Of a stretch of 64,000 nt of DNA, positions 41,221 to 63,885 are shown piece by piece. Made by a program: the position numbers and the translations under genes. The stretch covers positions 6,900,001 through 6,964,000 of the forward strand of contig NZ_CP048113.1 of assembly GCF_010093065.1 (NCBI RefSeq), read 5' to 3'. The notes beneath the pieces are model-generated. The model did no database searches. It was not told the DNA's origin and saw nothing but the letters and a program-made list of their open reading frames with translations. The DNA is from Chitinophaga agri (GTDB lineage Bacteria > Bacteroidota > Bacteroidia > Chitinophagales > Chitinophagaceae). The stretch's first letter is position 1. Each line of letters begins with the position of its first letter.

Positions 41221-41285
41221 TTCTTTTCGTGTGCCCATTAGGGGTAAGTTTACGAGCCGTTTAATTCATATTATCAATAAATTAG
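41221..41285 (+). repeat. Island repeat copy R1 (GTGCCCA...CGAGCC)
   Basis: Starting at 41231 the bases GTGCCCATTAGGGGTA, then GTTTACGAGCC and TTATCAATAA, align base for base with copy R5 at 52449 apart from scattered substitutions. It is preceded by an AT-rich CTTTTTCTTTT tract. It begins about 30 bases after the HxlR gene and marks the start of the accessory island. Confidence 0.55.
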
Positions 41286-41626
41286 GTTGCTAAAAGTGCT
41301 GCAGACATTGACCAAAGGCCTGAACGATTGTATCAAGCTGAAATGGAAATGTTTTGAAGAGAAAGACAAATAAGCGTGTTGGGGGGCAGAAGCTTATGAT
41401 TAGCAGGGCTTTATCTTAAGAATGTCCAACAGAACATCTTATGGCGAGACATGTATTGATTGTGTTGCCTGAGTTTTGTTTTGAGTGTAGGAAGGAATAG
41501 TGAATATCGCAGGCTTAGACGACTATAAAAAGCAAACGGTTGGAGAACATCTCGGACCTTTCCGCTTTTGTGCCCGGTACGGTGGAACAATCCCAATTTC
41601 CCGACAGAATTAAAAGAAACACAAAA
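41286..41626. other. 340-base gap, no recognised gene
   Basis: Contains short broken reading frames, and copy R2 near its end (listed separately). No recognisable protein. Confidence 0.4.
41515..41585 (+). repeat. Island repeat copy R2 (degenerate)
   Basis: GACGACTATAAAAAGCAAA begins a segment that matches R5 (52398 onwards) through the degenerate hairpin (GGTTGGAG...CTCGGACCTTTCCGCTTTT) and the start of the tail (TGTGCCCGGTACGGT). After this the similarity ends. Confidence 0.6.
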
Positions 41627-42616
41627 ATGATACTGCAGGATTTAATAAGTCTGATAGGAGTAAAAAGTACGGACCCAAGGATTGCACAGCTATTTGAGCA
41701 GAATAATCTGGGTAAACCGCCTAAAACAATCACATCTAATCAGGGGCAAAAAGCATTCAAAGACAAGCAGCAGCTGATAGACTACACTTTCAAATTTGAT
41801 ATCACCAATGACAGTTACTACCCACCTGTAAGTGTCAGGAATGAGGATTACAAATTTGACAACTACCTGAGTAATATGGTAGTGTTTTCCAAACCAGCAC
41901 GTGGGAAAAAAGAATTCGTTGATCCTAAACCGATAAGCTTTTGGGACGGTTTCATAAACCCAGGGAGTTCTTTAGAGGAATGTCTTGCATATTTTGACAA
42001 TCAATCAAGAAGTACTCGCAGCAGTACAATTTTTGAAAAGTCATTGAATGATATAGCGGAAATAAAAGTGTGGTTTGCAAACGATGAAAAAGAGGTGACG
42101 ACTATTGAAATAAGGATTATCGAAGATACTGAGATCTTTGCTCATAGCTATTTCAATCCCGCAAACAAGTTTAACACTGTCCCGCAAGCTTATTCCTTAT
42201 TGGTAAAATGGTTATTTGACAATAAGTACCTGAATCTTTCAGAAGAAACATATAGCCAGGAATTAAGTCTTGATCACACAGATATTCTGGCCTTTGTAAA
42301 GACTCACCTGAAAAGTCATATATGGGATACACAGATCAAGGACATCCCTTACCTGCGATCATTTTTATTTGAAATTGCTTCGAATTCTTCTATTAAAAAT
42401 AAGGATGGAGAGGAAATAAACTTTTATATAAAAAATCTATACGTCAGAACAGCTGGTAAATGGGAGGAACATCAGAAAATTTATGACACAGACATCTTAG
42501 GTTTAGAGGATTTTGAAAATACTATCTTTCTGGATGCTACAAAATCCATTCAGTTTTTAGATACGTTGACTGAGCACTTTGCTTTGTTTGCTCAGCTGAC
42601 TGAAATAAATAAATAG
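41627..42616 (+). CDS. Hypothetical protein of unknown function
   Basis: A 329-residue soluble protein with no signal peptide or membrane segment. Characteristic pieces are MILQDLISLIGVKSTDPRIA, NSYYPPVSVRNEDYKFDNYL-like and KFNTVPQAYSLLVKWLFDN. An earlier start at 41540 lies inside repeat R2, so ATG 41627 is preferred. It is the first island gene and stands alone, flanked by R2 and a strong terminator. The style resembles immunity-type accessory proteins, but I do not recognise a family. Confidence 0.65.
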   Translation: MILQDLISLIGVKSTDPRIAQLFEQNNLGKPPKTITSNQGQKAFKDKQQLIDYTFKFDITNDSYYPPVSVRNEDYKFDNYLSNMVVFSKPARGKKEFVDPKPISFWDGFINPGSSLEECLAYFDNQSRSTRSSTIFEKSLNDIAEIKVWFANDEKEVTTIEIRIIEDTEIFAHSYFNPANKFNTVPQAYSLLVKWLFDNKYLNLSEETYSQELSLDHTDILAFVKTHLKSHIWDTQIKDIPYLRSFLFEIASNSSIKNKDGEEINFYIKNLYVRTAGKWEEHQKIYDTDILGLEDFENTIFLDATKSIQFLDTLTEHFALFAQLTEINK

Positions 42617-42641
42617 TTTGTCAGCAACAGGATATAACAAG

Positions 42642-42684
42642 AAGGAGCTATCTCAAAAGTAAATTGGGATAGCTCCTTTTTTTG
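42642..42684 (+). terminator. Terminator of the first island gene
   Basis: A 14-bp stem (AAGGAGCTATCTCA with TGGGATAGCTCCTT, one G.U pair) followed by T7, 25 bases after the stop at 42616. Confidence 0.85.
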
Positions 42685-42967
42685 TATGGAGTTTTTTCAA
42701 ATAAAAGGCTGATTCTCCCTCTGGTAAGTAAAGGAAATATTACATTTTATCATTACTGCACATTAATCGTAAAATAGCCCCAATCTGCACTCGTGCAGTC
42801 TTTGCCTGAACAATTACTTCTAAACGTCGATACCTTCACGTGTCGATGCCGGATCTCGATATTTCTCGATACTGGGAATTGACATGACCTGGCTGTAAAG
42901 AACTGCGTTTTTTCTTTTTTGTTAGGATAGATTGAACAAGCCTTTGACATTTTGGTCAGCATTTCAT

Positions 42968-43396
42968 CTAGTTTAAGATATTTGAATAATATTTATGTTC
43001 GGTATTATTCATTTCCTTTGTCGCCCAAAACATGTATCTATAGGATATGCTTTGCGCCAATCTTCTATAATGCCTTCTAGGTATCTTATTCGTACAGATC
43101 ATGGAGTCGTCAATTGGAACTGAGAAGAAGAGTATTTCATGAGGTCCGATTGTAAATACCGATGTATTTGGATTCTCTATATTACAAAAAATATCATAAT
43201 TATTGGTTTCCCAATTTTTTCCAAATAAATGCTGTTTATAAACGGAAAATAGAAAACTGTTACCATCTGAATTATTCTTAATTTCCAGACCAATACTGTC
43301 CTTTGATAAATAGCATGCATTGATTACTATGGGATTCTGAGCTGGAAGCTTAGAGGAAAATATACTCAATAAGAGAATCGAAAATATCTTAACCAT
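42968..43396 (-). CDS. Secreted hypothetical protein
   Basis: A 142-residue protein with a signal peptide (MVKIFSILLLSIFSSKLPAQ). The mature part has SIGLEIKNNSDGNSFLFSVY and TIGPHEILFFSVPIDDS, suggestive of a small beta-sandwich, and a basic C-terminal third. No family is recognised. The gene is AT-rich compared with regions 1-3. It runs opposite to the preceding island gene. Confidence 0.6.
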   Translation of the reverse strand: MVKIFSILLLSIFSSKLPAQNPIVINACYLSKDSIGLEIKNNSDGNSFLFSVYKQHLFGKNWETNNYDIFCNIENPNTSVFTIGPHEILFFSVPIDDSMICTNKIPRRHYRRLAQSISYRYMFWATKEMNNTEHKYYSNILN

Positions 43397-43768
43397 TATT
43401 TTATCTTTTTAGTTCCACCATTGGTTTTATGTTGAGGACTCATACACTTAGAATTTTACTTCGGGTGAATAAATATTACAAATTGGGTACAGTTCCCAAG
43501 AATGGCTTGAAAATTTTAATAGACACAAGTGGTCATCGTCCCAATTGTTAAAATTATATAATTTCACAACTGGTATTATCAGTTAGAACTATGCTTTGAG
43601 ATATGATACATACTGCCCGGTCAATCGTACCGGGAGCAAATGATCTCGTCCTAGTTTGGCGGTCCCCAGTCTTAGGACCGATAATCGTTCTTTTTAAGCT
43701 TTTAAGTGTTAAATGATTTACTGGGCTTTGCCCAGTGAATCATTTAATACAAGCCCCCCGGCAGGGGA
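43397..43768. other. 372-base gap including the downstream part of an IS3 remnant
   Basis: No gene is seen. From about 43600 it probably belongs to the IS3 remnant: a dyad CGGTCC/GGACCG near 43662-43682 and an 18-bp hairpin at 43709-43747. Confidence 0.4.
43709..43747 (-). terminator. 18-bp hairpin downstream of the IS3 transposase remnant
   Basis: TTAAATGATTTACTGGGC pairs with GCCCAGTGAATCATTTAA (one G.T pair, 3-base loop), 22 bases beyond the transposase stop at 43769. Confidence 0.55.
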
Positions 43769-43981
43769 TTATGCGGCTTTCGCCATATATACTTCTATTG
43801 GAGTTGAATAATCCAATGATTGATGTAGGCGGGCACGATTATAAAAATTAAAATATCCTGTCAGTCCTTGATAGAGTGAAAGACCATCTTCGTGTACGTT
43901 CAGGTAAATGTGTTCATATTTAACACTCCTCCACAGTCGTTCGATCCATACATTATCCAACGCCCGACCTTTCCCGTCCAT
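43769..43981 (-). pseudogene. IS3-family transposase, C-terminal fragment
   Basis: Only the last 70 residues of an IS3-type DDE transposase (OrfB) remain: SMDGKGRALDNVWIERLWRSVKYEHIYLN-like, then YFNFYNRARLHQSLDYSTPIEVY, which contain the final catalytic Glu region (ERLWRSVKYE) and the usual end of the integrase core. The N-terminal catalytic part is lost at about 43985, where an unrelated reading frame begins on the other strand. This is a dead IS remnant. Confidence 0.85.
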
Positions 43982-43983
43982 GC

Positions 43984-44235
43984 TTATTTTTATTTCATGT
44001 ACAAAGGATCAATGCGAACGATTGTCTTGGCCCTGCGATACTAAATTTTGATCTTGTTACTTATATGCTTCAATGGGAGGATAGGGAGGATATTAAAGGT
44101 AAAATAGAGGGTATTGCTAATGTGATCGTAAAATTTGATGAAACGGGTATACGTTTTATGGATGAATTCCGGCAAATGCGGCCAGATTATATAGAAAAAT
44201 TGGTGGTATGGCTGGTAAGAAGAGGTCCGAATTTG
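43984..44235 (+). pseudogene. Stump of an unknown protein cut by IS3 and IS66
   Basis: The frame is open from the IS3 breakpoint through 44235, where the IS66 element begins and supplies the stop. It encodes about 84 residues with normal protein composition, including NFDLVTYMLQWEDREDIKGK, GIANVIVKFDETGIRFMDEF and MRPDYIEKLVVWLVRRGPN. It lacks both ends of its gene. It may be part of the same gene as the stump right of the IS (48428 onwards), since both run on the plus strand; this is not shown. Confidence 0.45.
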
Positions 44236-44309
44236 TAAGGTTCCGGTAGACAGCATCTTCGGCATGTAAGTCTGAGGGTTTATGTTTGCGTTGTTTAAAT
44301 ATGCCCTGT

Positions 44310-44642
44310 ATGCAACCAACCAATAATTCCACGATACGTTCATTTACAATATCGGAGAAGAAGAATATCGCGATGCAATGGAGCCAGTCAAACGTAAAGA
44401 TGCAAGTGTTTTGTGATAATCATGGAATCACGGTCTCCATGCTCAAGAACTGGAGGAAGCAGTTTGCCACTCCTGCAAAAGTTCCCAGACGAAAACATTT
44501 CATTCAGCTCACACCTTCTAAGGCGAGTATACCAGATATTGCACTTCCATTCGCGGAGGTGGTATCTTTATCAGGTAACAGGATAATTTTTCATTCGGCG
44601 GTCAACACAGACATGCTAAAAGAGCTACTAAACAGTAAATAA
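44310..44642 (+). CDS. tnpA: IS66 TnpA
   Basis: A 110-residue IS66-family accessory protein with an N-terminal helix-turn-helix (KKNIAMQWSQSNVKMQVFCDNHGITVSML). Upstream in-frame ATG 44301 and TTG 44286 are alternatives. The stop is followed directly by the ATG of tnpB. Identical residues are seen in the other copies. Confidence 0.85.
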   Translation: MQPTNNSTIRSFTISEKKNIAMQWSQSNVKMQVFCDNHGITVSMLKNWRKQFATPAKVPRRKHFIQLTPSKASIPDIALPFAEVVSLSGNRIIFHSAVNTDMLKELLNSK

Positions 44643-44999
44643 ATGCTGGCACTCTCGTCCTCATGCCGGTATTTTCTGTATACTCAGCCAATCATGATAA
44701 GTAGTAGCTTTTACAAACTGGCGGCTATTGTCAATCAACAGATGCATTTGGATCCTTTAACCGGGGATGTCTATATTTTCTTTAACCGCAGAGCTACACA
44801 TATCAAGCTACTTCAATGGCAGCAAGATGGATTTGCGATTTATTACAAGCGGCTTGAGAAGGGAACATTTGAGATTCCTAAACCAGGTGGGGTACAACCC
44901 TCGCTTACTTCTACACAATTGATGCTTATTCTGCAAGGCATTCAGATGGATAAAGTCCAGTACCGCAGGCGGTATTTTCGACAATCTTCCGATCATTAA
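44643..44999 (+). CDS. tnpB: IS66 TnpB (Orf2)
   Basis: A 118-residue TnpB of the IS66 Orf2 family: LTGDVYIFFNRRATHIKLLQWQQDGFAIYYKRLEKG is the family core, with FEIPKP following. It begins at the base after the tnpA stop. Required with TnpA and TnpC in IS66 transposition. Confidence 0.9.
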   Translation: MLALSSSCRYFLYTQPIMISSSFYKLAAIVNQQMHLDPLTGDVYIFFNRRATHIKLLQWQQDGFAIYYKRLEKGTFEIPKPGGVQPSLTSTQLMLILQGIQMDKVQYRRRYFRQSSDH

Positions 45000-45048
45000 C
45001 ATCGCGCTAACAAATAATTGATTTCCATTTGATAACATTGCAATTGCA

Positions 45049-45762
45049 ATGAGTACGTCAGCAAAAGATAATGATTACAAACAGCTCTATGAGTCTGCCA
45101 TCAACAAGGTTGAGCAGCTGCAGCATGAATTGAATCAGCTCAAGAAGATGATTTTCGGAGTTCGCCAGGAGCGATTTATTCCCGCAGATAAGAATCAACT
45201 GGCACTCGATATTCCAACAGAACAATCTGCTGTTGTTTGCAACGTGTTAGATGCAAAGAAGGTGACTTATGTCAAAGTTGTAAAACAAGATGCGACTCAA
45301 GGGAGAGATAGCCGTCATACCATACCATCTCACTTACGAAGAGAAGATGTAATTATAGATCCAGACCATATACCAGCTGGTAGTAAACATATTGGCACCA
45401 CTGAAACTGAAGTGCTGGAATACAAACCCGCTGAAATTTATGTAGTCCGTTACATCCGTAACAAGTACCTTCTCCCATCTGCGGATGAGACGTCGTCAAA
45501 AATTATTGTTGGACCTTTGCCAACATTACCAGTTACAAAATCGATGATGGGGCCAGGCTTACTGGCTCAACTGGTTGTTGAGAAGATCTGCGATCATCTC
45601 CCCGTGCATCGCCAGCAACAACGTCTGGAAAGAGATGGCATAAAGCTACCATACTCAACGCTGAGTGATGGTTTTGCTAAGACAGCTGCGTTAATTACTC
45701 CTATTTACAGAGCGCTGGTAACAGAAGTACTCAACGCTGACTATTTGCAGGCTGATGAGACA
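45049..45762 (+). CDS. tnpC: IS66 TnpC transposase, 5' exon
   Basis: The first 238 codons of TnpC, the DDE transposase: a leucine-zipper-like coiled coil (KQLYESAINKVEQLQHELNQLKKM), the zinc-type middle region and the first catalytic region ending ADYLQADET (codon ACA at 45760-45762). The group II intron GTGTG starts right after. Joined to 47606-48382 it gives exactly the 496-residue protein of copy 2. Unspliced translation would run 6 codons into the intron and stop. Confidence 0.9.
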
Positions 45763-47605
45763 GTGTGCCTTGAAGTAACATGAAAAGTTACATGCTGTTA
45801 GATTGATGGTGGCAGGCCCACCGTAAGGGATGACAGGCATACCTTACAAACCACCCTATGATGCTTTGGACGAAAGGAAAAGGTGTTGAGCGATAGGGGA
45901 AAAGGCAGAATTAATCTGTCAGGTAAGATTTAGTGAGCTGAACGAAAGTGAACTGCCATAGTAAAGTATCGATATCGCACTTATTCTGTCGAAAGCAGGT
46001 AACAGTTTCTTACCTACAAATTAAGTTTAGCGACAGTAACCTGGTGTTGGCTAGATGACAGGCGGTACATAGGTAGCAGGACACTAAATCAGGCGATTTA
46101 ATGGAACAAGGGAATTTGTACAGGAGTGCAAAGGGAACAATTCAAGCGGAGACACCGCAAGGTTAAATACCAATATCCTGTACAGAGGCGGACTAAGTCG
46201 TAGTACTATTGAAGCTGCTGTAATGGCTGTGGAGGGAAGGGCTTAGCCAGATTAGTTTTATAAAACCAACAACAGTAAAATGGATGATTGATTATTATGA
46301 AACAAAGCAACATCCGGTGACCAAGAAAATGGTACTGGATGCTTACAAGAAAGTAAAGGAAAATAATGCAAGTGGTGGAATCGACGGAGAAAGTATAGAA
46401 GATTTTTCGATTGATGCGTCAAAGAATCTATACCGGATTTGGAACAGAATGACATCTGGATGTTATTACCCGCCAGTTGTGAAAAGCGTTGAAATTCCAA
46501 AGAAATCTGGCGGTGTGCGTATTCTTGGCATACCTACAATATCAGATCGCATAGCTCAACAGGTTGTGAAAAATTATCTTGAACCTATCGTGGAAGGCAG
46601 CTTCCATGAGGATAGTTATGGATATCGTCCCGGTAAGAATGCACATCAGGCCTTGGAGAAAGCCACTGCACGGTGTGGTTATTATAGTTGGGTGGTTGAT
46701 ATTGATATTCGAGCGTTTTTTGATAGTATAGATCACGAACTGTTGTTGAAGGCAATCGAGTGGTATACAAAAGAGAAATGGATTCTAATGTATATTAAGC
46801 GATGGCTTAAGGCTGGAATTATGTGTAACGGAGAAGTTAGACGTGGGGAAAAGGGCACTCCTCAGGGAGGAGTAATAAGCCCGCTACTAGCTAACATCTT
46901 CCTTCACTTTGTATTTGATAAATGGATGGAAAAGAATCACTCAAACATGCCTTTTGAACGGTATTGTGACGATGCAATTATACACTGTACGACAGAAAAA
47001 CAGGCAAATTTCATCAAAGGTGCAATTACCAGGAGGATGATAGATTGTCGGTTGATGCTGAATGAGGAAAAGACGCGTATAGTTTACTGCAAAAATCATA
47101 TACATACTGAAGCACATCGAAGTGTAAGCTTTGACTTTCTGGGTTATACTTTTCGACCATTAGGCAGACCAACTAAGAATGGCTGGAAACTTATGTATTT
47201 TCCGTGTATGAGTGACTCGTCTAAAAAAGCAGTTAGGCAAAAAGTGAGAGAGGTAGTAAGAAGACGTTTCCAAGGCACGATTTTGAACATCGCAAGGATA
47301 CTAAACCCTAAAATCAGGGGATGGTATCAGTATTATTGTGTATACTCAAAGTGGACAACACATGGATTGTGGTACTGGCTAAATCTAAAATTGGTAAGAT
47401 GGATAATGGAAAATAGAAAGCTTGGAAAGGGACGGGCGCATAGATGGCTTGTAAGAGTCTACGAAACCAATCCCCGATTATTTGAACACTGGTCATTTAT
47501 TCGCCCATATTAATTGTATTGCTAATCTGGAAGCGCCGTGTGATGGGAGACTATCACGCACGGTGCTGTGAGAGGCTTGGGCTGAAATGCCCTTGCCTAC
47601 TCGAC
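45763..47605 (+). mobile_element. Group II intron, copy 1
   Basis: An 1843-base intron starting GTGTGCC (consensus GUGYG) and ending GAC (consensus AY). Domain V is visible at 47532-47567 (AGCGCCGTGTG...CGCACGGTGCT with a GAGA tetraloop and the catalytic AGC). A domain VI-like stem follows to 47605. It carries the maturase gene at 46284-47513 in domain IV. The exact boundaries are confirmed by comparison with the uninterrupted tnpC of copy 2, which reads straight from ACA into TCGGTACC. Confidence 0.95.
46284..47513 (+). CDS. ltrA: Group II intron reverse transcriptase/maturase
   Basis: A 409-residue intron-encoded protein: RT0-RT7 domains (VVDIDIRAFFDSIDHELL at about 137-154, GTPQGGVISPLLANIFLH at 191-208, catalytic YCDD at 227-230 in place of the common YADD), then the maturase X region (about 320-365, ILNPKIRGWYQYYCVYS) and a short basic C-terminus (KGRAHRWLVRVYETNPRLFEHW). 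No HNH endonuclease domain is present, so homing would rely on the endonuclease-free route. It differs from copy 2 by one residue (Ser282 versus Arg). Confidence 0.93.
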   Translation: MIDYYETKQHPVTKKMVLDAYKKVKENNASGGIDGESIEDFSIDASKNLYRIWNRMTSGCYYPPVVKSVEIPKKSGGVRILGIPTISDRIAQQVVKNYLEPIVEGSFHEDSYGYRPGKNAHQALEKATARCGYYSWVVDIDIRAFFDSIDHELLLKAIEWYTKEKWILMYIKRWLKAGIMCNGEVRRGEKGTPQGGVISPLLANIFLHFVFDKWMEKNHSNMPFERYCDDAIIHCTTEKQANFIKGAITRRMIDCRLMLNEEKTRIVYCKNHIHTEAHRSVSFDFLGYTFRPLGRPTKNGWKLMYFPCMSDSSKKAVRQKVREVVRRRFQGTILNIARILNPKIRGWYQYYCVYSKWTTHGLWYWLNLKLVRWIMENRKLGKGRAHRWLVRVYETNPRLFEHWSFIRPY

Positions 47606-48382
47606 TCGGTACCAGTGCTCGACAAGGATAAGAAAGGGAGCACTCATCGGGGGTATTACTGGCTCTATCAGGATAATATTAACAAGCTGCTTGTCTTTGA
47701 TTATCAACCCGGGCGTGGCCGGGAAGGACCCGCAGAAATGCTGAAAGATTTTTATGGTACGCTGCAAACAGACGCTTACTCTGCATATAATAGCATCGTT
47801 GACACCAATAATATAACATTGATCCACTGTCTTGCTCATGCAAGAAGGTACTTCTCTGACGCTATTTACAGCGACCGAGAAAGAGCAGAATATGTATTGG
47901 AACAGTTACAGCTCGTCTATCAGATTGAACGCGATAGCAGGGCGTTAAATCACGACAATGAAAAACGAGCAGCTTCAAGACAGAAGCACTCCTTACCTAT
48001 ACTGAAGAAATTAGGAAGCTGGATGGAAGACCAATACAAGCAGGTACTTCCACAAAGCCCGATAGGAAAAGCCCTTGCCTATAGTATAAAACGCTGGGAT
48101 AAACTCTGTGCCTTCGTGTATGATGGAAAGCTACATCCAGATAATAACGCGGCTGAGAGATCTATAAGAGCGACTGTTATAGGCCGAAAGAATTACCTCT
48201 TTGCCGGGAGCCATGAATCAGCAAAGCGAATTGCAATGCTCTACAGCCTGATCGGAACCTGTAAACTACATAACATTAATCCCAGCCTTTGGCTAAAGGA
48301 CGTTTTAACGGTCATTAACGACCATCCTATCAACAGAATCAAAGAGCTCCTACCTCATATCTGGATCACGAAGCAAAAGTAA
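47606..48382 (+). CDS. tnpC: IS66 TnpC transposase, 3' exon
   Basis: Codons 239-496 of TnpC, reading SVPVLDKDKKGSTHRGYYWLYQD, GRGREGPAEMLKDFYGTLQTDAYSAYN (second catalytic Asp region), HCLAHARRYFSD, and the DDE end with NNAAERSIRATVIGRKNYLFAGSH (catalytic Glu). The stop is 45 bases before the right inverted repeat. The protein can only be made from spliced RNA. Confidence 0.9.
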   Translation, partial: SVPVLDKDKKGSTHRGYYWLYQDNINKLLVFDYQPGRGREGPAEMLKDFYGTLQTDAYSAYNSIVDTNNITLIHCLAHARRYFSDAIYSDRERAEYVLEQLQLVYQIERDSRALNHDNEKRAASRQKHSLPILKKLGSWMEDQYKQVLPQSPIGKALAYSIKRWDKLCAFVYDGKLHPDNNAAERSIRATVIGRKNYLFAGSHESAKRIAMLYSLIGTCKLHNINPSLWLKDVLTVINDHPINRIKELLPHIWITKQK

Positions 48383-48427
48383 CGCTCTCCAAAGTCATTA
48401 AATAGGTGCTGTCTACCGGATACTTAC

Positions 48428-49656
48428 TGTATATAAACATCATTCGTATGAATTAAACCCTGCTATGATTGATTATATGCTAGATAGGTTTGAAAACGTG
48501 GCTGATCTAAAAGAATTTAATCGTGCCCAGTTGACTAATATTTTGAAAATGGCCCATTCTCCATTGTGTTTATATGTGCAAAGTGATAGAGAAGATTATT
48601 TGGTCAAGAGTTTTATCCCATTGGAAGATCATGATCAGGAGGATACTAATACGATGGTAGTTGTGTTGAGTGATAATACGGTAAGTGATGGGACAAAGAT
48701 GAGGGTGATAGAACGAGTAAGTTTTAAAGTATCTGATCTAAGATTGTTGCCAGTACAATATTATCATTTGTTATTGGCGAATGCAAGATTTATACCTAGT
48801 TGGAGGAATATTATACGGTATTATCAGACAACAAGTAATTATTCAGTTGATGAGCAGTTGATGGTTTATATTGAGAGTGTGCATAAGGAGTTGTTTAATA
48901 CGCCATTGCCAACAGGATTGGATCAGGAGGATGGGAAAGACTTGGATAATATTATAAGCTCGCTGCTGATGGGTAAGGTGCTTAAAAATGAGAGCAAGTT
49001 GGAGTTAATAGGCAGTGGCTTGGTTGAACGAAAGCTATTTATCAATGATTTTAGTGGAATGAGTGTGTCGTTAGTACATCATTTATTGCGTCATCTTGCA
49101 ATAGAAAGGGTTACTTTATCTGCGTTGATCAAAGATAGCTTTATGGGGTTTGTGGAATTGACTAATATTTATTGGGATGAACTTTTACCATTATTAGAGC
49201 AATTGCCGCTTGAAGAAAGACATTATTATACTTTGTTACAGGCAAGTTGGATAACGCCAGATCGGAAGCAGGCAATATTGGACCGGGTATCGCGGGAAGT
49301 GATGTTGGGGCTTATTAAGAGGGGGGTATCACATACCGGTAGGCGCTATCCAGGAATCAGGTTTTGAATATACTGATGAAGATATATTAGCGATATTAAA
49401 AGGGGATAGGAAGCCAGCTGCAGATACTTTGGTGGGATTGATACTGGGATATGCAGATCGGTTCAGTGAGGAGACGTTGGTGGAGTTGTTAATGGCATTG
49501 GGTGGACCATTTGCAAAAATTGCGAAAAAGCAGGGGAAGGAAGTAGATAATGCTCCTTGGATGCCTGAGGTACTGAAGGTGTTGAGTGAAGTGGGAGAAC
49601 TGGTTGAGCGTTTTACGACTAAGACAAAGATCATTGAAGTAAAATATATTGAGTAA
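48428..49656 (+). pseudogene. Unknown protein, 5' end lost to IS66 and frameshifted in a G6 run
   Basis: The frame is open from the IS end; first ATG 48465 (MIDYMLDRFENVADLKEF). It stops at 49367, but the next frame continues in the same style from about 49328 to TGA 49654-49656 (GAIQESGFEYTDEDILAIL). Removing one G from GGGGGG at 49321-49326 joins them into a 396-residue protein. The intact gene was longer at its 5' end. The product contains LYVQSDREDYLVKSFIPLED and helical regions. The family is not recognised with confidence; large P-loop NTPases of the YobI type have similar C-terminal halves, only a guess. Confidence 0.6.
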
Positions 49657-49950
49657 CTCTGCTTTATCAAATTATAGTTGTTTACATATTTTAGTCGAAA
49701 CTTTAAGATTGCCTATTTCTCCCATGAATTATGCATTTTTAGATGAGGTATATAGTCCCATAAGAAAGAAGATTAATACCGTAGTGCTAAAAGCTTTAAA
49801 CCCTTGTATTGGTAAGAATATAATTGATGAATAATGTCTACGGAATAGTTATATTCAAATCGGTATTATAATTAGCGTTTATTATAGCAAAACAGGAATC
49901 GAACTATTTTTAGTTGAGAATTAAATAGTTGCGTAGGTAAGAAAATTATA
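49657..49950. other. 294-base gap; no convincing gene
   Basis: A 61-codon frame at 49649-49834 has uncertain coding value. It is left as unannotated, AT-rich sequence leading into repeat R3. Confidence 0.35.
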
Positions 49951-50040: not shown

Positions 50041-50059
50041 AACTTGAGATGTAAATAAG

Positions 50060-50199: not shown

Positions 50200-50204
50200 A
50201 AAGA

Positions 50205-55008: not shown

Positions 55009-55055
55009 ACCGAGCGAAATTTTTAGATGGTTAAAGCATTATATACTACGTTTAG

Positions 55056-55240: not shown

Positions 55241-55264
55241 ATACATATCTATATAATAAAAAAA

Positions 55265-56337: not shown

Positions 56338-56355
56338 TATACTAAAAGACAGAAA

Positions 56356-56775
56356 ATGCCTCATATTACTATAGGTAGTTCCATTGAATGTCTAGGAGCG
56401 GAAATACACTCAAGAAAATTTGTCCCTAAAATCGTTGTTAACATTCCAAATGTAGGACGATGTTATAAGTATTCTGGTGATCGCAATAGTGACGCGGTAA
56501 TTACGAAAGAACTACATCCCAAGGTCCCAAAATATAGTACGAATTCGGCCTTAAGCTTAAGTGAGTCAATTGCCGGTGAAGGTATATTTATTTTAGTTAA
56601 TTCTGTTAAGCAATTATTAATTAAAGTATCACCATATACACATAGACACAAAGCTCAATATTGTTCCACAAATGTTTTTACCTATGCAGAAATTACCAAG
56701 CCATTTCCCAATATTGGAGAAATAATAAATTCGAAGCTGCTGCAAAATCCCAATTCAGGATTGTTGGATATATAA
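56356..56775 (+). CDS. Hypothetical protein, third gene of the module
   Basis: A 139-residue protein without signal peptide or membrane segment (MPHITIGSSIECLGAEIHSR, IVVNIPNVGRCYKYSGDRNS, VSPYTHRHKAQYCSTNVFTY). The spacing to the previous gene is 18 bases, suggesting one operon. No family recognised. Confidence 0.6.
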   Translation: MPHITIGSSIECLGAEIHSRKFVPKIVVNIPNVGRCYKYSGDRNSDAVITKELHPKVPKYSTNSALSLSESIAGEGIFILVNSVKQLLIKVSPYTHRHKAQYCSTNVFTYAEITKPFPNIGEIINSKLLQNPNSGLLDI

Positions 56776-56889
56776 TTGTATGTTTATTATACTGTAGCTT
56801 TAAGACTACAAGATGTAATCTCAAAGCTACTACATGACGGATCATACCCCAATTTCTGATAGGCATTTCCGATCTTCAACCCTGGTTAT

Positions 56890-57080
56890 TTATACAGGAT
56901 CTGTTGGCTTAAATGGTTCGATTTTAACAGTGCCAAATTTTGGGAGAGTTGGCGCAACCTCAGCGAACTTATAAGTATACTGATCTGTCAACTTTCTTAG
57001 TAAGGTTTCCCATGCACCAGGTATTGATAGATCAACGATATCGTTTCCTTTAAGCCCAAAAGGAACAATATTCGGTGAAC
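56890..57080 (-). pseudogene. C-terminal stump of an unknown gene cut by IS66 copy 3
   Basis: Minus strand, from the IS edge at 57080 to a TAA at 56890, about 63 residues including NIVPFGLKGNDIVDLSIPGA and WETLLRKLTDQYTYKFAEV. The matching N-terminal part is not found on the other side of the element. Confidence 0.45.
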
Positions 57081-57774
57081 GTAAGGTTCCGGTAGACAGC
57101 ATCTTCGGCATGTAAGTCTGAGGGTTTATGTTTGCGTTGTTTAAATATGCCCTGTATGCAACCAACCAATAATTCCACGATACGTTCATTTACAATATCG
57201 GAGAAGAAGAATATCGCGATGCAATGGAGCCAGTCAAACGTAAAGATGCAAGTGTTTTGTGATAATCATGGAATCACGGTCTCCATGCTCAAGAACTGGA
57301 GGAAGCAGTTTGCCACTCCTGCAAAAGTTCCCAGACGAAAACATTTCATTCAGCTCACACCTTCTAAGGCGAGTATACCAGATATTGCACTTCCATTCGC
57401 GGAGGTGGTATCTTTATCAGGTAACAGGTAAGGTTCCGGTAGACAGCATCTTCGGCATGTAAGTCTGAGGGTTTATGTTTGCGTTGTTTAAATATGCCCT
57501 GTATGCAACCAACCAATAATTCCACGATACGTTCATTTACAATATCGGAGAAGAAGAATATCGCGATGCAATGGAGCCAGTCAAACGTAAAGATGCAAGT
57601 GTTTTGTGATAATCATGGAATCACGGTCTCCATGCTCAAGAACTGGAGGAAGCAGTTTGCCACTCCTGCAAAAGTTCCCAGACGAAAACATTTCATTCAG
57701 CTCACACCTTCTAAGGCGAGTATACCAGATATTGCACTTCCATTCGCGGAGGTGGTATCTTTATCAGGTAACAG
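57081..57774 (+). repeat. Two extra tandem copies of the IS66 left end (347 bp each)
   Basis: Units 57081-57427 and 57428-57774 are identical to each other and, apart from one base (C versus G at about 58050), to the first 347 bp of the full element at 57775. Each holds the left inverted repeat and the first part of tnpA. The junctions read TAACAG followed directly by GTAAGGTTCC, whereas the full copy reads TAACAGGATAATTT; the last bases share CAGG. Confidence 0.95.
57156..57431 (+). pseudogene. Truncated tnpA, tandem unit 1
   Basis: The first 91 codons of tnpA, ending GNR then a TAA provided by the next unit's GTAAGG end. Probably non-functional but could make a truncated helix-turn-helix protein. 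Confidence 0.7.
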
Positions 57775-57778
57775 GTAA
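57503..57778 (+). pseudogene. Truncated tnpA, tandem unit 2
   Basis: Same as unit 1: 91 codons of tnpA, closed by the TAA of the following GTAAGG end. Confidence 0.7.
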
Positions 57779-57849
57779 GGTTCCGGTAGACAGCATCTTC
57801 GGCATGTAAGTCTGAGGGTTTATGTTTGCGTTGTTTAAATATGCCCTGT

Positions 57850-58182
57850 ATGCAACCAACCAATAATTCCACGATACGTTCATTTACAATATCGGAGAAG
57901 AAGAATATCGCGATGCAATGGAGCCAGTCAAACGTAAAGATGCAAGTGTTTTGTGATAATCATGGAATCACGGTCTCCATGCTCAAGAACTGGAGGAAGC
58001 AGTTTGCCACTCCTGCAAAAGTTCCCAGACGAAAACATTTCATTCAGCTGACACCTTCTAAGGCGAGTATACCAGATATTGCACTTCCATTCGCGGAGGT
58101 GGTATCTTTATCAGGTAACAGGATAATTTTTCATTCGGCGGTCAACACAGACATGCTAAAAGAGCTACTAAACAGTAAATAA
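57850..58182 (+). CDS. tnpA: IS66 TnpA, copy 3
   Basis: A full-length 110-residue TnpA, identical in sequence to the other copies. Confidence 0.85.
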   Translation: MQPTNNSTIRSFTISEKKNIAMQWSQSNVKMQVFCDNHGITVSMLKNWRKQFATPAKVPRRKHFIQLTPSKASIPDIALPFAEVVSLSGNRIIFHSAVNTDMLKELLNSK

Positions 58183-58539
58183 ATGCTGGCACTCTCGTCC
58201 TCATGCAGGTATTTTCTGTATACTCAGCCAATCATGATAAGTAGTAGCTTTTACAAACTGGCGGCTATTGTCAATCAACAGATGCATTTGGATCCTTTAA
58301 CCGGGGATGTCTATATTTTCTTTAACCGCAGAGCTACACATATCAAGCTACTTCAATGGCAGCAAGATGGATTTGCGATTTATTACAAGCGGCTTGAGAA
58401 GGGAACATTTGAGATTCCTAAACCAGGTGGGGTACAACCCTCGCTTACTTCTACACAATTGATGCTTATTCTGCAAGGCATTCAGATGGATAAAGTCCAG
58501 TACCGCAGGCGGTATTTTCGACAATCTTCCGATCATTAA
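58183..58539 (+). CDS. tnpB: IS66 TnpB (Orf2), copy 3
   Basis: A 118-residue TnpB identical to copy 1, starting directly after the tnpA stop. Confidence 0.9.
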   Translation: MLALSSSCRYFLYTQPIMISSSFYKLAAIVNQQMHLDPLTGDVYIFFNRRATHIKLLQWQQDGFAIYYKRLEKGTFEIPKPGGVQPSLTSTQLMLILQGIQMDKVQYRRRYFRQSSDH

Positions 58540-58588
58540 CATCGCGCTAACAAATAATTGATTTCCATTTGATAACATTGCAATTGCA

Positions 58589-59302
58589 ATGAGTACGTCA
58601 GCAAAAGATAATGATTACAAACAGCTCTATGAGTCTGCCATCAACAAGGTTGAGCAGCTGCAGCATGAATTGAATCAGCTCAAGAAGATGATTTTCGGAG
58701 TTCGCCAGGAGCGATTTATTCCCGCAGATAAGAATCAACTGGCACTCGATATTCCAACAGAACAATCTGCTGTTGTTTGCAACGTGTTAGATGCAAAGAA
58801 GGTGACTTATGTCAAAGTTGTAAAACAAGATGCGACTCAAGGGAGAGATAGCCGTCATACCATACCATCTCACTTACGAAGAGAAGATGTAATTATAGAT
58901 CCAGACCATATACCAGCTGGTAGTAAACATATTGGCACCACTGAAACTGAAGTGCTGGAATACAAACCCGCCGAAATTTATGTAGTCCGTTACATCCGTA
59001 ACAAGTACCTTCTCCCATCTGCGGATGAGACGTCGTCAAAAATTATTGTTGGACCTTTGCCAACATTACCAGTTGCAAAATCGATGATGGGGCCAGGCTT
59101 ACTGGCTCAACTGGTTGTTGAGAAGATCTGCGATCATCTCCCCGTGCATCGCCAGCAACAACGTCTGGAAAGAGATGGTATAAAGCTACCATACTCAACG
59201 CTGAGTGATGGTTTTGCTAAGACAGCTGCGTTAATTACTCCTATTTACAGAGCGCTGGTAACAGAAGTACTCAACGCTGACTATTTGCAGGCTGATGAGA
59301 CA
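58589..59302 (+). CDS. tnpC: IS66 TnpC transposase, 5' exon, copy 3
   Basis: The first 238 codons, ending at the ACA after the Asp-Glu of ADET, then the intron. It differs from copy 1 by one residue (VAKS versus VTKS). Joined to 61146-61922 it restores 496 codons. Confidence 0.9.
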
Positions 59303-61145
59303 GTGTGCCTTGAAGTAACATGAAAAGTTACATGCTGTTAGATTGATGGTGGCAGGCCCACCGTAAGGGATGACAGGCATACCTTACAAACCACCCTATG
59401 ATGCTTTGGACGAAAGGAAAAGGTGTTGAGCGATAGGGGAAAAGGCAGAATTAATCTGTCAGGTAAGATTTAGTGAGCTGAACGAAAGTGAACTGCCATA
59501 GTAAAGTATCGATATCGCACTTATTCTGTCGAAAGCAGGTAACAGTTTCTTACCTACAAATTAAGTTTAGCGACAGTAACCTGGTGTTGGCTAGATGACA
59601 GGCGGTACATAGGTAGCAGGACACTAAATCAGGCGATTTAATGGAACAAGGGAATTTGTACAGGAGTGCAAAGGGAACAATTCAAGCGGAGACACCGCAA
59701 GGTTAAATACCAATATCCTGTACAGAGGCGGACTAAGTCGTAGTACTATTGAAGCTGCTGTAATGGCTGTGGAGGGAAGGGCTTAGCCAGATTAGTTTTA
59801 TAAAACCAACAACAGTAAAATGGATGATTGATTATTATGAAACAAAGCAACATCCGGTGACCAAGAAAATGGTACTGGATGCTTACAAGAAAGTAAAGGA
59901 AAATAATGCAAGTGGTGGAATCGACGGAGAAAGTATAGAAGATTTTTCGATTGATGCGTCAAAGAATCTATACCGGATTTGGAACAGAATGACATCTGGA
60001 TGTTATTACCCGCCAGTTGTGAAAAGCGTTGAAATTCCAAAGAAATCTGGCGGTGTGCGTATTCTTGGCATACCTACAATATCAGATCGCATAGCTCAAC
60101 AGGTTGTGAAAAATTATCTTGAACCTATCGTGGAAGGCAGCTTCCATGAGGATAGTTATGGATATCGTCCCGGTAAGAATGCACATCAGGCCTTGGAGAA
60201 AGCCACTGCACGGTGTGGTTATTATAGTTGGGTGGTTGATATTGATATTCGAGCGTTTTTTGATAGTATAGATCACGAACTGTTGTTGAAGGCAATCGAG
60301 TGGTATACAAAAGAGAAATGGATTCTAATGTATATTAAGCGATGGCTTAAGGCTGGAATTATGTGTAACGGAGAAGTTAGACGTGGGGAAAAGGGCACTC
60401 CTCAGGGAGGAGTAATAAGCCCGCTACTAGCTAACATCTTCCTTCACTTTGTATTTGATAAATGGATGGAAAAGAATCACTCAAACATGCCTTTTGAACG
60501 GTATTGTGACGATGCAATTATACACTGTACGACAGAAAAACAGGCAAATTTCATCAAAGGTGCAATTACCAGGAGGATGATAGATTGTCGGTTGATGCTG
60601 AATGAGGAAAAGACGCGTATAGTTTACTGCAAAAATCATATACATACTGAAGCACATCGAAGTGTAAGATTTGACTTTCTGGGTTATACTTTTCGACCAT
60701 TAGGCAGACCAACTAAGAATGGCTGGAAACTTATGTATTTTCCGTGTATGAGTGACTCGTCTAAAAAAGCAGTTAGGCAAAAAGTGAGAGAGGTAGTAAG
60801 AAGACGTTTCCAAGGCACGATTTTGAACATCGCAAGGATACTAAACCCTAAAATCAGGGGATGGTATCAGTATTATTGTGTATACTCAAAGTGGACAACA
60901 CATGGATTGTGGTACTGGCTAAATCTAAAATTGGTAAGATGGATAATGGAAAATAGAAAGCTTGGAAAGGGACGGGCGCATAGATGGCTTGTAAGAGTCT
61001 ACGAAACCAATCCCCGATTATTTGAACACTGGTCATTTATTCGCCCATATTAATTGTATTGCTAATCTGGAAGCGCCGTGTGATGGGAGACTATCACGCA
61101 CGGTGCTGTGAGAGGCTTGGGCTGAAATGCCCTTGCCTACTCGAC
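59303..61145 (+). mobile_element. Group II intron, copy 2
   Basis: 1843 bases, the same length as the first copy, starting GTGTGCC and ending GAC, with the same domain V at 61072-61107. Insertion is between the same two tnpC codons. The near-identity of both introns indicates recent spread together with the IS or by homing. Confidence 0.95.
59824..61053 (+). CDS. ltrA: Group II intron reverse transcriptase/maturase, copy 2
   Basis: 409 residues, the same as the first copy except Arg282 where copy 1 has Ser282 (RSVRFDFLG). RT motif is YCDD at 227-230; maturase X and basic tail are intact. Confidence 0.93.
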   Translation: MIDYYETKQHPVTKKMVLDAYKKVKENNASGGIDGESIEDFSIDASKNLYRIWNRMTSGCYYPPVVKSVEIPKKSGGVRILGIPTISDRIAQQVVKNYLEPIVEGSFHEDSYGYRPGKNAHQALEKATARCGYYSWVVDIDIRAFFDSIDHELLLKAIEWYTKEKWILMYIKRWLKAGIMCNGEVRRGEKGTPQGGVISPLLANIFLHFVFDKWMEKNHSNMPFERYCDDAIIHCTTEKQANFIKGAITRRMIDCRLMLNEEKTRIVYCKNHIHTEAHRSVRFDFLGYTFRPLGRPTKNGWKLMYFPCMSDSSKKAVRQKVREVVRRRFQGTILNIARILNPKIRGWYQYYCVYSKWTTHGLWYWLNLKLVRWIMENRKLGKGRAHRWLVRVYETNPRLFEHWSFIRPY

Positions 61146-61922
61146 TCGGTACCAGTGCTCGACAAGGATAAGAAAGGGAGCACTCATCGGGGGTATTATT
61201 GGCTCTATCAGGATAGTATTAACAAGCTGCTTGTCTTTGATTATCAACCCGGGCGTGGCCGGGAAGGACCCGCAGAAATGCTGAAAGATTTTTATGGTAC
61301 GCTGCAAACAGACGCTTACTCCGCATATAATAGCATTGTTGATACCAATAATATAACATTGATCCACTGTCTTGCTCATGCAAGAAGGTACTTTTCTGAC
61401 GCTATTTATAGCGACCGGGAAAGAGCAGAATATGTATTGGAACAGTTACAGCTCGTCTATCAGATTGAACGCGATAGCCGGGCGTTAAATCACGACAATG
61501 AAAAACGAGCAGCTTCAAGACAGAAGCACTCCTTACCTATACTGAAGGAATTAGGAAGCTGGATGGAAGACCAATACAAGCAGGTACTTCCACAAAGCCC
61601 GATAGGAAAAGCCCTTGCCTATAGTATAAAACGCTGGGATAAACTCTGTGCCTTCGTGTATGATGGAAAGCTACATCCAGATAATAACGCGGCTGAGAGA
61701 TCTATAAGAGCGACTGTTATAGGCCGAAAGAATTACCTCTTTGCCGGGAGCCATGAATCAGCAAAGCGAATTGCAATGCTCTACAGCCTGATCGGAACCT
61801 GTAAACTACATAACATTAATCCCAGCCTTTGGCTAAAGGACGTTTTAATGGTCATTAACGACCATCCCATCAACAGAATCAAAGAGCTCCTACCTCATAT
61901 CTGGATCACGAAGCAAAAGTAA
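61146..61922 (+). CDS. tnpC: IS66 TnpC transposase, 3' exon, copy 3
   Basis: The last 258 codons. It differs from copy 1 by a few residues (DSINK versus DNINK, LKELGS versus LKKLGS, DVLMVIND versus DVLTVIND) and several silent changes, so the IS copies have diverged a little more than their introns. Confidence 0.9.
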   Translation, partial: SVPVLDKDKKGSTHRGYYWLYQDSINKLLVFDYQPGRGREGPAEMLKDFYGTLQTDAYSAYNSIVDTNNITLIHCLAHARRYFSDAIYSDRERAEYVLEQLQLVYQIERDSRALNHDNEKRAASRQKHSLPILKELGSWMEDQYKQVLPQSPIGKALAYSIKRWDKLCAFVYDGKLHPDNNAAERSIRATVIGRKNYLFAGSHESAKRIAMLYSLIGTCKLHNINPSLWLKDVLMVINDHPINRIKELLPHIWITKQK

Positions 61923-61985
61923 CGCTCTCCAAAATCATTACATAGGTGCTGTCTACCGGATACTTACCTTTTCTTAGTCTCATAT

Positions 61986-62223
61986 TTATTGTTCCAAGGT
62001 TCCAATAATTTTATGCCTCCATGGCTTAATAATATTCGTATCTGCATATTCCTCGTCTGGAGAACTTTTTAATAATGACTTATCGATGTCAATTATCTTT
62101 TCATTTATCCATTAAACCGAAATGATTTAAGTCAGATGGAATGACGTTGTTAAACTCACCGGAATTTTTTAACACATTGGTATCACGAGGCGGATCCAAT
62201 AAATCATACCCAAAAAAATCCAT
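61986..62223 (-). pseudogene. Small unknown gene broken by a frameshift
   Basis: Minus strand, ATG 62223 reads MDFFGYDLLDPPRDTNVL and on to NHFGLMDK with TGA at 62101. The next frame continues INEKIIDIDKSLLKSSPDEE and IIKPWRHKIIGTLEQ to TAA at 61986. A single-base change in the ATGGATAAATGAAAAG region would join them (about 79 residues). Weak evidence, no family. Confidence 0.35.
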
Positions 62224-62238
62224 GATCCGTAATCTTAA

Positions 62239-62282
62239 TTGGCTTGCAGTAAGCATTAGGATTGATGCTTACTGCAAGCCAA
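62239..62282. repeat. 18-bp perfect inverted repeat
   Basis: TTGGCTTGCAGTAAGCAT and its exact complement with an 8-base spacer. No T-tract beyond AAAAA/TTTTT-poor flanks; 16 bases upstream of the frameshifted small gene. Confidence 0.8.
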
Positions 62283-62670
62283 GTTAAAAATTCACTAAGT
62301 TGAATATTATTGAGGATAAAATCCAATGAGGTGAAGAAAACGTTTCATAGCAGCCATTCAATACGGTATAATTCCAAAGATCTTTGGAATTACGATTACT
62401 TTCTACTACACTTCATTTAACCTCTGAGCAACAGATGCCAATTCCGTAAACTGTGGTAGTCTGGCTGGCTAATTAACATATGTAATCCAAGCGTCCGCAT
62501 CTTGTCTGCAATCATAAAATACAAACTACTTGGTATTTTCTATTGATAGTATCCTTTATATTTTGCGTAGAAGGCCCGATAAGTGATGAACATGAAATCA
62601 GTGAGTATCTGTTGTAGTATAACAGGACACTTAAATTTTAAATATAATATAATAATCAACTTATTAATTT
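62283..62670. other. 388-base AT-rich gap without genes
   Basis: No protein-like frame or strong structure seen. It holds the promoter region of the frameshifted membrane-anchored gene at 62671. Confidence 0.45.
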
Positions 62671-63583
62671 ATGGAAAAAAATACTTGGATTGATGTTGAA
62701 AGGGAATACGAATATCGAAATGAAGAATGGATCGAAGTAAAAAGAAAATCCATTAGAAATCAAGGTTTATCAACTAAGGTGAAAGATATATGGGAGTTAA
62801 TATTCAAGTTTTTTGCCGCGATTGCAATATTTACTCCATTTATCATTATTACTGTCCAAAATAGGAGTGAAATTAAGCTGCAAAAAAAAAAATGCGTTGA
62901 TGGAATTATCGTCTGATATTATATCTACATTAGAATTGTTCAAAAGAACAGCAACATACGATTCCCTTGTAAATTCGGCTAACAATACTACATTGTCTGT
63001 AATTTATCCGTCTAAAATCGCTGTATATGGTACCAAAGAAATTTACGATGCTTACATTTTAGCTAAGTCAAGCTTAGGAGTTGTACTTTATTTGCGAAAA
63101 TTAATGGTTGAAAGCGAAGATATTTTATCACAGATAAGATATTTGAATAATTTTGCAGATTACGTGAGACATGAGATAGATACCGTTTATTTGATCTCAA
63201 ATTCAAAAATATTAAAAGACTCCACGTATTTGAAGAAGCTAATATATAAACTTGACGAGAATCTTTCTTTTGCATTAGGCACCTGTAACAATATTAGGAG
63301 GCATGCGTCAAATGATTCAAGTAAATTTAGTTATCGTCTGATGTCTCGAATATCGGATGGAGAAAAAATATTTCAGAGAATAGAGATATCAAGTGATAAT
63401 TTGTGGGATAGTATGTTTATTGAATCCCAATTACGTGGGAAGAAACTGATATCAATTAATATGCGGACGACTGAACTTAATAGTTGGATGTCGTCTTTGT
63501 CGAAATTCGAACTTTTATCCGAAGAGGCTTATAAAGTTAAAATTGGTCTTTTGCAGGAAACAATCCTTAAGGAGTTAAAATAG
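62671..63583 (+). CDS. Membrane-anchored hypothetical protein split by an A11 run
   Basis: The first frame (MEKNTWIDVEREYEYRNEEW..., 81 codons, stop 62914-62916) contains an N-terminal soluble part and one transmembrane helix near residues 46-62. After AAAAAAAAAAA at 62882-62892 the next frame continues without interruption to 63583 (NALMELSSDIISTLELFKRT, helical, Ser/Leu-rich). Removing one A fuses them into a protein of about 303 residues. It may be a simple frameshift (pseudogene) or be rescued by polymerase slippage on the A-run; the second part also has internal ATG codons. No family recognised. Confidence 0.6.
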
Positions 63584-63794
63584 AGATCATAACCAAGATG
63601 AGACAACATCATTGATAACACGTATTGTCGAGTGACGAAAGCGCGTTTAATCCTATTTTAAATTGAAGAAGTTGTGATTTAATCTGACATTCATTTATCA
63701 ACTGTGCAAATTTGTGAACTTGATTTGTTATCACGGCTTATCGAACCTGTTTTGAATTGAGTATGAATTATTTGTGGAACTGAGTAAGATAGGT
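63584..63794. other. 211-base gap before repeat R6
   Basis: AT-rich, nothing gene-like. Confidence 0.4.
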
Positions 63795-63885
63795 AAAAAT
63801 GCGAAATCCGCTATCAGAGCGGATTTCGCATTTTTTGTGCCCAGTAGTGGATTATTCTCGAACCAATTGGTTCTGATTATTAGTA
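63795..63885 (+). repeat. Island repeat copy R6 with an 18-bp hairpin
   Basis: AAAAATGCGAAATCCGCT (63795-63812) pairs perfectly with 63818-63835, 5-base loop ATCAG, then TTTTTGTGCCCAGTAGTGG at 63836 and CTCGAACCAATTGGTTCTGATTATTAGTAAGTT. The tail matches R5; the stem has the same architecture as R3 but different bases on both arms. Confidence 0.8.

Follow-up and report, generated by a model that had tools for sequence, protein, structure and literature searches.

Tandem accretion at RNA genes is already known, as excerpts of four papers attest (PMC3146451, PMC5704250, PMC10872708, PMC5217437). According to the first of these excerpts, the ssrA islands of Dehalococcoides stand in tandem behind one RNA gene and are bounded by repeats of its 3' end; their serine recombinase DsiB, of about 540 aa, is encoded by a gene that reaches with its 3' end into the attachment site and meets no stop ahead of the island border, and 15 of 31 islands have no integration module (PMC3146451). 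Integrative and conjugative elements (ICE), integrative and mobilizable elements (IME) and cis-mobilizable elements (CIME) are described as accreting in tandem at tRNA genes, NBU1 and MTnPi4 lying in tRNA-Leu of Bacteroidetes (PMC5704250). The portions of the island literature drawn on here also report that the recurring last 20 bp of tRNA-Lys mark the island fGI-2 of Methylophilaceae (PMC10872708), that islands of Alteromonas vary by gain and loss of cassettes through site-directed recombination (PMC5217437), and that Tycheposons are tRNA-anchored transposons of 4-200 kb with a tyrosine recombinase and cargo (PMC10872708). Here we analyse six repeated elements of Chitinophaga agri in a window (the whole stretch of DNA under study, 64,000 nucleotides) which covers bases 6900001-6964000 of a 7.97-Mb single-contig genome. 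A preliminary description of this DNA had taken the repeats for attachment-site remnants repeatedly used to acquire accessory genes, and this reading was borne out, the copies being junctions behind tRNA-Leu. It is near certain, as far as sequence comparison can tell, that they form a stack of attachment (att) junctions at tRNA-Leu, and we consider it very probable that they are attR-type distal junctions of mobile modules stacked at the tRNA-Leu 3' end, that two recombinases target that end and that most of the modules are non-autonomous.

Read on the minus strand, each copy has the same order, namely a left arm of the element of about 50 nt (AACTTATTAATAATCA...TTGGTTCGAAAACG...CTA), the core CTGGGCAC, which is the last 8 nt of tRNA-Leu, and a terminator hairpin of tRNA type. 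The six junctions of the window, all on the minus strand, follow this plan in differing states of preservation. Junction 1 (63795-63893) has its hairpin at 63795-63836, the tRNA-Leu 3' end GTGCCCAG at 63837-63844 and the left arm up to 63893; junction 2 (52407-52503) has a GGTCGGAG hairpin, the core at 52449 and the left arm; junction 3 (50229-50281) has its core at 50233 with a partly decayed arm and a broken hairpin; and junction 4 (49951-50048) has a AAGCCGCTCT hairpin, the core at 49993 and the left arm. Junction 5 (41509-41600), which was found by its likeness to junction 2, is decayed, with a broken GGTCCGAG hairpin and a GTGCCCGGTAC core at 41570, and junction 6 (41230-41284), also decayed, is the distal end of the island and lies beside a gene at 40827-41201 which we take, from reading it, to be an HxlR-type regulator.

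A scan of the window found exact GTGCCCAGTAG at 49993, 50233, 52449 and 63837, all on the plus strand, while the copies near 41231 and 41571 are degenerate and hold no exact GTGCCCAGTAG. Since this 11-mer alone, with two mismatches allowed, was no commoner than chance (16 in the window against a shuffle mean of 11.5), the whole unit was tested instead. A repeat search put 49951-50045, 52407-52501 and 63795-63889 into one group that spans 95 nt, its members being 64-78% identical to the first one. The six copies in one direction of the preliminary description thus stand as four with an exact core, three of which share the 95-nt unit, and the two leftmost, which are decayed. A 62-nt profile of arm and core gave E values of about 1e-15 to 1e-17 for junctions 1, 2 and 4 and about 1e-9 to 1e-10 for 50229-50281, but these four belong to the 12 C. 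agri copies from which the profile was built and match by construction. Outside the model, the 41231 copy scored weakly (E about 0.002-0.005) and the 41571 copy gave no match, the latter being seen through its hairpin side, which is 93% identical over 29 nt and 89% over 38 nt to that of the 52449 copy. TTCGAACC was exact in two of the six copies (50013 and 52469), with one extra site at 52339. A BLAST search of the genome that used a single copy and preceded the profile had already given 12 matches, all of them at 1.598-1.709 Mb, 2.5975 Mb or 6.95-6.96 Mb.

No tRNA was called inside the window. An intact tRNA-Leu(CAG) which ends in CTGGGCAC lies 4.1 kb past the window end, at genome positions 6968136-6968220 on the minus strand, and is followed by a hairpin of GGTCGGAG type, 94% identical over 50 nt to that of the 52449 copy. 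A tRNA 3' end with its terminator had already been suspected on the minus strand; only CTGGGCAC and the hairpin are of tRNA type, and the tail with TTCGAACCAATTG...TTATTAGTAA, which had been counted as part of the tRNA 3' end, turned out to be the arm of the element and not a T-arm. The likeness of the arm to the tRNA is restricted to GGTTCGAA, at another spacing, and the arm is therefore taken as the element's own. A T-arm as the source of the tail was rejected on two grounds: the spacing of the tail to CTGGGCAC is unlike that in the tRNA, and the bases around GGTTCGAA are mismatched. The direct repeat of the tRNA 3' end expected in tRNA orientation at the far end is present and short, comprising CTGGGCAC plus the terminator.

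In C. agri six tRNA-Leu genes end in this way, and at all six sites ARAGORN called an intact tRNA-Leu. At E<=0.001 all 15 copies of this genome lie downstream and on the same strand of a tRNA-Leu end, and each of the six ends has at least one, a count which is not independent because the model was built from 12 C. agri copies; the copies of relatives are independent. A spread of copies everywhere beside housekeeping genes, which would have spoken against attachment sites, was not what the C. agri genome showed. The genome searches scored part of the first-look candidates, so that the copy counts given here are lower bounds: in 11 genomes 127 copies were found, and 31 of 47 such tRNA ends bear a copy. 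Of the 74 copies within 60 kb of a tRNA-Leu end on the same contig, 69 were downstream on the same strand, none was upstream on the same strand and five were on the opposite strand, while that downstream same-strand space makes up 1.6% of positions times strands. Copies occurred in 16 of 36 Chitinophaga genomes, C. agri included, and in none of 23 genomes of other genera (59 searched). At the treY locus the same order of treY and tRNA-Leu(CAG) was seen in three relatives, six others had treY without tRNA-Leu in the stretch taken, and no empty site was found among them; the potassium transporter, taken as marker for another locus, had no other match in the genus.

The hairpins differ from the arm in their conservation. 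The 50 nt that follow the core were folded for 67 copies taken from 20 regions: 60 of them reached -10 kcal/mol or lower, compared with 11 of 67 at +300, and T runs follow the hairpins; the stems comprise at least eight unrelated sequences. The preliminary description had proposed a kept hairpin whose arms change together; the folding is confirmed, and one RNA with compensatory changes is not, the hairpin versions being different terminators that different modules brought. One conserved structured RNA was also rejected on the ground that the copies had no Rfam match at gathering thresholds, and as the RNAalifold structure of the first alignment fell on the arm and not on the hairpin, model R1 was left unused in the searches. 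On the right-arm side a full copy of the left arm was detected by profile in 3 of 67 copies (none in two control windows and in shuffles), and the short motif GTTCGA was overrepresented, being present in 18 of 67 copies and in 0-2 of 67 in each of five control windows. The decay of copies with distance from the tRNA gave a mixed picture. It may be noted that a sequence of about 200 bp ending in CACGGACTTTGCACAGCGCAATCGAAAACG or variants of it stands where the outer left arm would be expected, always at one point of the arm, in G025 (contig C3, 3463 and 190548), G034 (C7, 4830046) and G027 (C22, 603288), and is either another element end or an arm-specific insertion. Short sequences of the kind GGATCAAGTTGAA...TTGGGG, which look like the ends of one miniature inverted-repeat transposable element (MITE) or insertion sequence (IS), were seen at window 52290-52316, at about 6968060 of the genome and in module M35 of G034; they mark truncated right ends and, in M35, the borders of its insert.

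Two unrelated recombinases occupy fixed positions beside these tRNA ends. The first is a tyrosine integrase (INT) of 364 aa with PF13102 and PF00589, a family of 681 proteins at E<=1e-30, whose gene runs sense to the tRNA and lies 384-473 bp behind tRNA-Leu or an att core in 14 of the 15 matches entered (15 of 23 in 11 genomes, the other eight being partial); distances of both recombinases were measured against 47 tRNA ends and nine att copies. Of 22 integrase loci from named genomes, 13 have tRNA-Leu a short way upstream and three have an att copy there; among the remaining six, five are fragments or lie at the end of a contig, and L114 is full-length with neither. Three direct repeats with a 12-bp period precede the integrase at nine of ten loci among those listed, being degenerate in the tenth, and their unit differs by integrase clade (GACACTC, GACACAC or GACTAAA); such repeats are expected of integrase arm sites. 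A pair of TGACA repeats was present in 9 of 67 att copies against 0 of 67 in three control windows. The arrangement of tRNA, integrase and att copy is displayed by the L118 element of strain CF118, which is about 10 kb long and has the left arm. No relaxase or mating gene was recognised by Pfam in nine open reading frames (ORFs), five from L118, where two further ORFs were left out, and four from module M14. Matches of the integrase in plasmid and phage records were all below 60% identity. As a separate observation, G013 holds on contig C1 four like triplets of tyrosine recombinases (428, 351 and 358 aa; 41497-43970, 3148234-3150707, 4022406-4024879 and 4275084-4277557), which resemble a further transposon.

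The second enzyme is a large serine recombinase (LSR) of 524 aa with PF00239, PF07508 and PF13408, encoded antisense. We entered 27 of its matches (24 of the 38 in the 11 genomes plus three from G002, G015 and G017), and in eight of them the end of a 485-aa query lay 69-73 bp from the core. Of the ten matches with at least 55% identity, five lay at 72-73 bp and one at 120 bp, two in G012 had no core in the lists used, and two belong to genomes without tRNA data; one of the two core-less G012 matches adjoins a tRNA-like 3' end outside the pattern. On contig C11 of G009 the serine recombinase gene (190627-192201) spans the att site at 190645-190675, its frame passing through the GGTCGGAG hairpin into the core. 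Matches to phage records were again all below 60% identity.

Whereas recombinases lie beside the tRNA in relatives, only remnants of them were found in C. agri, with no intact copy of either. There is one integrase fragment at 2608391-2608714; a C-terminal remnant of the serine recombinase (residues 466-519, 77.8% identity, E=8e-20) lies on the plus strand of the window at 52317-52478, across the hairpin and core of junction 2, and further remnants of the C-terminal frame were seen beside the tRNA and at 2597630-2597737. Other matches to the serine recombinase reached only 25% identity, and PF00589 integrases occur elsewhere in the genome; a cluster of tyrosine recombinase genes, some of them short, is located at 5486-29392, away from the tRNA-Leu sites. 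As only remnants of both enzymes were found, the C. agri modules are probably frozen, and probably immobile now unless an enzyme arrives.

Counting as a module whatever lies between two successive CTGGGCAC cores, we mapped 76 modules in 20 regions picked for their copies. Their median length is 3.3 kb, 51 of them measure at most 5 kb, and most carry no recombinase: a near full-length integrase was present in five (three in G012, one of these with internal stops, one in G013 and one in G034), of which three start at a tRNA, integrase fragments were present in four more, and a near full-length serine recombinase in two (G009 and G012). That a recombinase-free module can nevertheless travel is indicated by M15 of C. 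oryziterrae, whose single gene encodes an M4 metallopeptidase with a secretion tail domain and which has no recombinase, nor any integrase trace at tblastn E 1e-4. M15 is 98.3% identical over 3276 bp to M35 of Chitinophaga sp. YR573. The likeness starts near the upstream core, includes the module's own terminator and ends within about 10 bases past the downstream core, and the inner 28 nt of the arms are alike too, while the 600-bp flanks compared differ and the neighbours are different; M35 has an extra insert of about 385 bp, presumably a MITE. At the one orthologous locus compared, tRNA-Leu(CAA), the chromosomes of the same two genomes are 86.5-89.7% identical over 6.1 kb in three pieces. 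An identity of 98.3% from core to core against 86-90% for the chromosome implies that this module moved recently as a unit, and the alignments thus demonstrate a recent transfer from core to core, alone or within a composite. Two other pairs, M12/M37 (94%, 2025 bp) and M16/M34 (93%, 1056 bp), are likewise alike up to the module end, the core behind M37 being broken.

Taken together, we propose that modules would be inserted one behind another at the tRNA-Leu 3' end, each one bringing its own terminator hairpin first, then one or few genes, and the conserved left arm and core last; because the module brings its own terminator, the tRNA would keep its 3' end and a terminator after insertion. The tyrosine integrase and the unrelated serine recombinase would target the same tRNA-Leu end in the genus, and recombinase-free modules would be non-autonomous units, mobilised in cis or in trans, which keep their sites and move when a recombinase is present. 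That the two enzymes moved them is our best reading, and we infer exchange by these recombinases, their action in trans and the passage of DNA between cells. More tentatively, and with rather little confidence, one may imagine a single site and a single module end common to both enzymes, with a shared pool of recombinase-free modules captured behind any tRNA-Leu and exchanged between Chitinophaga species, which would amount to a double-stranded, two-enzyme counterpart of the integron.

Several points weigh against the main proposal. Among the 127 copies of the 11 genomes, 26 lay on a contig with such a tRNA end but more than 60 kb away from it, and 27 on contigs that have none; some of the stacks may have been displaced, split by the assembly or situated at other tRNA genes. 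G016, G022 and G028 hold full-length integrases at about 62% identity and no copy by the model, so that not every member of the integrase family goes with this arm. The more distant serine recombinases are located at other places, no core being present within 5 kb for 16 of the 27 matches entered, and in the largest right-end class, CCGCTC/GTTCGA (30 of 76 modules; classes were set by regular expressions), no recombinase was found. Many recombinase-free modules might be decayed elements fixed in place, four of them holding integrase fragments, and the sharing of modules could partly be homologous recombination. The mobility of modules is, moreover, a matter of comparing sequences, and no excision or circle was observed.

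Two other explanations have considerable standing. One of them, to which we assign a little under an even chance, is tandem accretion and decay only: modules entered as autonomous elements and later lost their recombinase, and none moves without a recombinase in cis, as with CIME remnants. The integrase fragments in four modules, the serine recombinase remnants at C. agri junctions including that at window 52317-52478, and the failure to find an intact copy of either enzyme in that genome all suit such a history; the recent core-to-core movement of M15 does not, although a larger composite could still have carried it. The other, which we find plausible to the same degree, holds that the two recombinases use different, partly overlapping sites and that the common left arm was spread by recombination within the stacks without being recognised by both. 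Excision between any two cores would indeed mix the right end of one element with the left end of another, the right ends differ by class, and integrases at about 62% identity exist in genomes without the arm. On the opposite side, the left arm scores equally well in modules that begin with an INT-type right end and in those with an LSR-type one (n=12 each, median 48 bits in both), which is weaker than it looks because the modules were picked by their fit to the arm model, and the tRNA-integrase-att arrangement of strain CF118 has the left arm.

An integron-like system, in which one integrase captures cassettes of a single gene by way of folded single-stranded sites at a fixed platform, is very improbable. 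The arrays of small modules, whose sites all face one way behind a platform, recall it, but gene direction is random (95 with the tRNA and 101 against it, n=196), the enzymes are a PF13102 and PF00589 integrase and a large serine recombinase, repeats resembling double-stranded arm sites lie before the integrase, and the hairpin sequence varies between copies. Membership in the integrons was rejected on gene direction and recombinase family, as judged without a model of IntI or attC. That the copies are mere strong terminators or repetitive extragenic palindromic repeats between genes, with no role in recombination, can practically be discarded: hairpins followed by T runs are present, but it is the arm and core that are conserved and not the stem, copies near tRNA-Leu are almost confined to one side and strand, and the borders of the shared module fall at the core.

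The cargo was surveyed in modules up to 12 kb, where 228 ORFs of at least 100 aa, after removal of 26 that were IS66- or intron-like and six without a single-locus reference, left the 196 used for gene direction (one listed twice). The family scan covered 171 of these, and among the first 25 families tallied ThsB-like TIR, AbiE, PDC and DUF1016 candidates are mixed with metabolic genes. In the window, the tRNA-adjacent module is represented by its end at 63894-64000 (minus strand), the rest extending beyond the window up to tRNA-Leu(CAG) and encoding an RT_UG39 reverse transcriptase (654 aa) and an RTasVirE-PriCT2 protein (350 aa); these two make a candidate defence pair (L023:969-4017, genome 6964969-6968020). 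The 11.4-kb module between junctions 2 and 1 (52460-63794, minus strand) holds ORFs of 189, 168, 139 and 256 aa, none with a Pfam match, and two IS66-like copies. Between junctions 3 and 2 a plus-strand pair of genes, for an sce7726 family protein of 326 aa (50262-51242) and an sce7725 family protein of 314 aa (51254-52198), stands alone in a 2.2-kb module, and the PADLOC model cll matches the sce7726 protein with E=1.2e-16. No gene was assigned to the 240-bp module between junctions 4 and 3 (49999-50232, minus strand), and the 8.4-kb module between junctions 5 and 4 (41577-49992, minus strand) contains ORFs of 358, 142 and 300 aa, the first and third of which had no Pfam match, besides an IS66-like element with a group II intron. 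The three IS66-like copies of the window (44234-48427, 57775-61968 and 52650-55001) are presumably such, to go by ORF layout and inverted ends. Two of them have the group II intron (Rfam matches at 45808, 47531, 59348 and 61071) and the third has none at the corresponding place, so that the intron-carrying element seems to have been duplicated. Directly before the copy at 57775, at 57081-57774, the IS66-like left end is repeated twice more in tandem, in units of 347 bp.

The stacks would account for the placement, and possibly the exchange, of accessory genes of soil bacteria, candidate defence genes such as RT_UG39, ThsB-like TIR, AbiE and DUF1016 included, and they provide a sequence signature by which such islands can be cut into units. 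Should the same ends be accepted by both recombinases, two unrelated recombination chemistries would converge on one site, and non-autonomous modules would be there as a ready pool.

Searches of open-licence PMC papers listed none that, judged by title and the opening of the abstract, dealt with tRNA-Leu stacks in Chitinophaga or with a site common to both recombinase classes. As far as the excerpts of the published accounts go, the Chitinophaga stacks resemble the ssrA islands of Dehalococcoides in tandem stacking, in borders formed by repeats of the 3' end of the RNA gene, in a serine recombinase gene which overlaps the attachment site and in having members that lack a recombinase; they differ in using tRNA-Leu genes of several anticodons in place of one transfer-messenger RNA gene, and in adding a tyrosine integrase at the same end and a conserved element arm of about 50 nt (PMC3146451). 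With accretion of the NBU1 and MTnPi4 type they share, again within the excerpt available, a tyrosine integrase at the tRNA-Leu 3' end and decayed neighbours whose att sites are kept (PMC5704250). Recombinase-free modules with att sites stacked at one target, a CIME trait, are found here as well. Unlike ICE and IME as outlined in that excerpt, however, the two INT elements showed no relaxase or mating gene in the nine ORFs inspected, and unlike ICE, IME and CIME accretion the modules are small and many, occupying all six tRNA-Leu ends of C. agri, with a serine recombinase at the same site (PMC5704250). What sets Chitinophaga apart from additive flexible genomic islands as excerpted is that the complete junction could be identified, together with two recombinase families (PMC10872708, PMC5217437). 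Tycheposons, by the same partial account, have tRNA anchoring, a tyrosine recombinase and cargo in common with these stacks, in which 51 of the 76 modules, unlike theirs, are of 5 kb or less and most are without a recombinase (PMC10872708). What looks new, within the reach of the literature searches, is this family, the presence of two recombinases at one site with one common left end, and the scale of recombinase-free modules.

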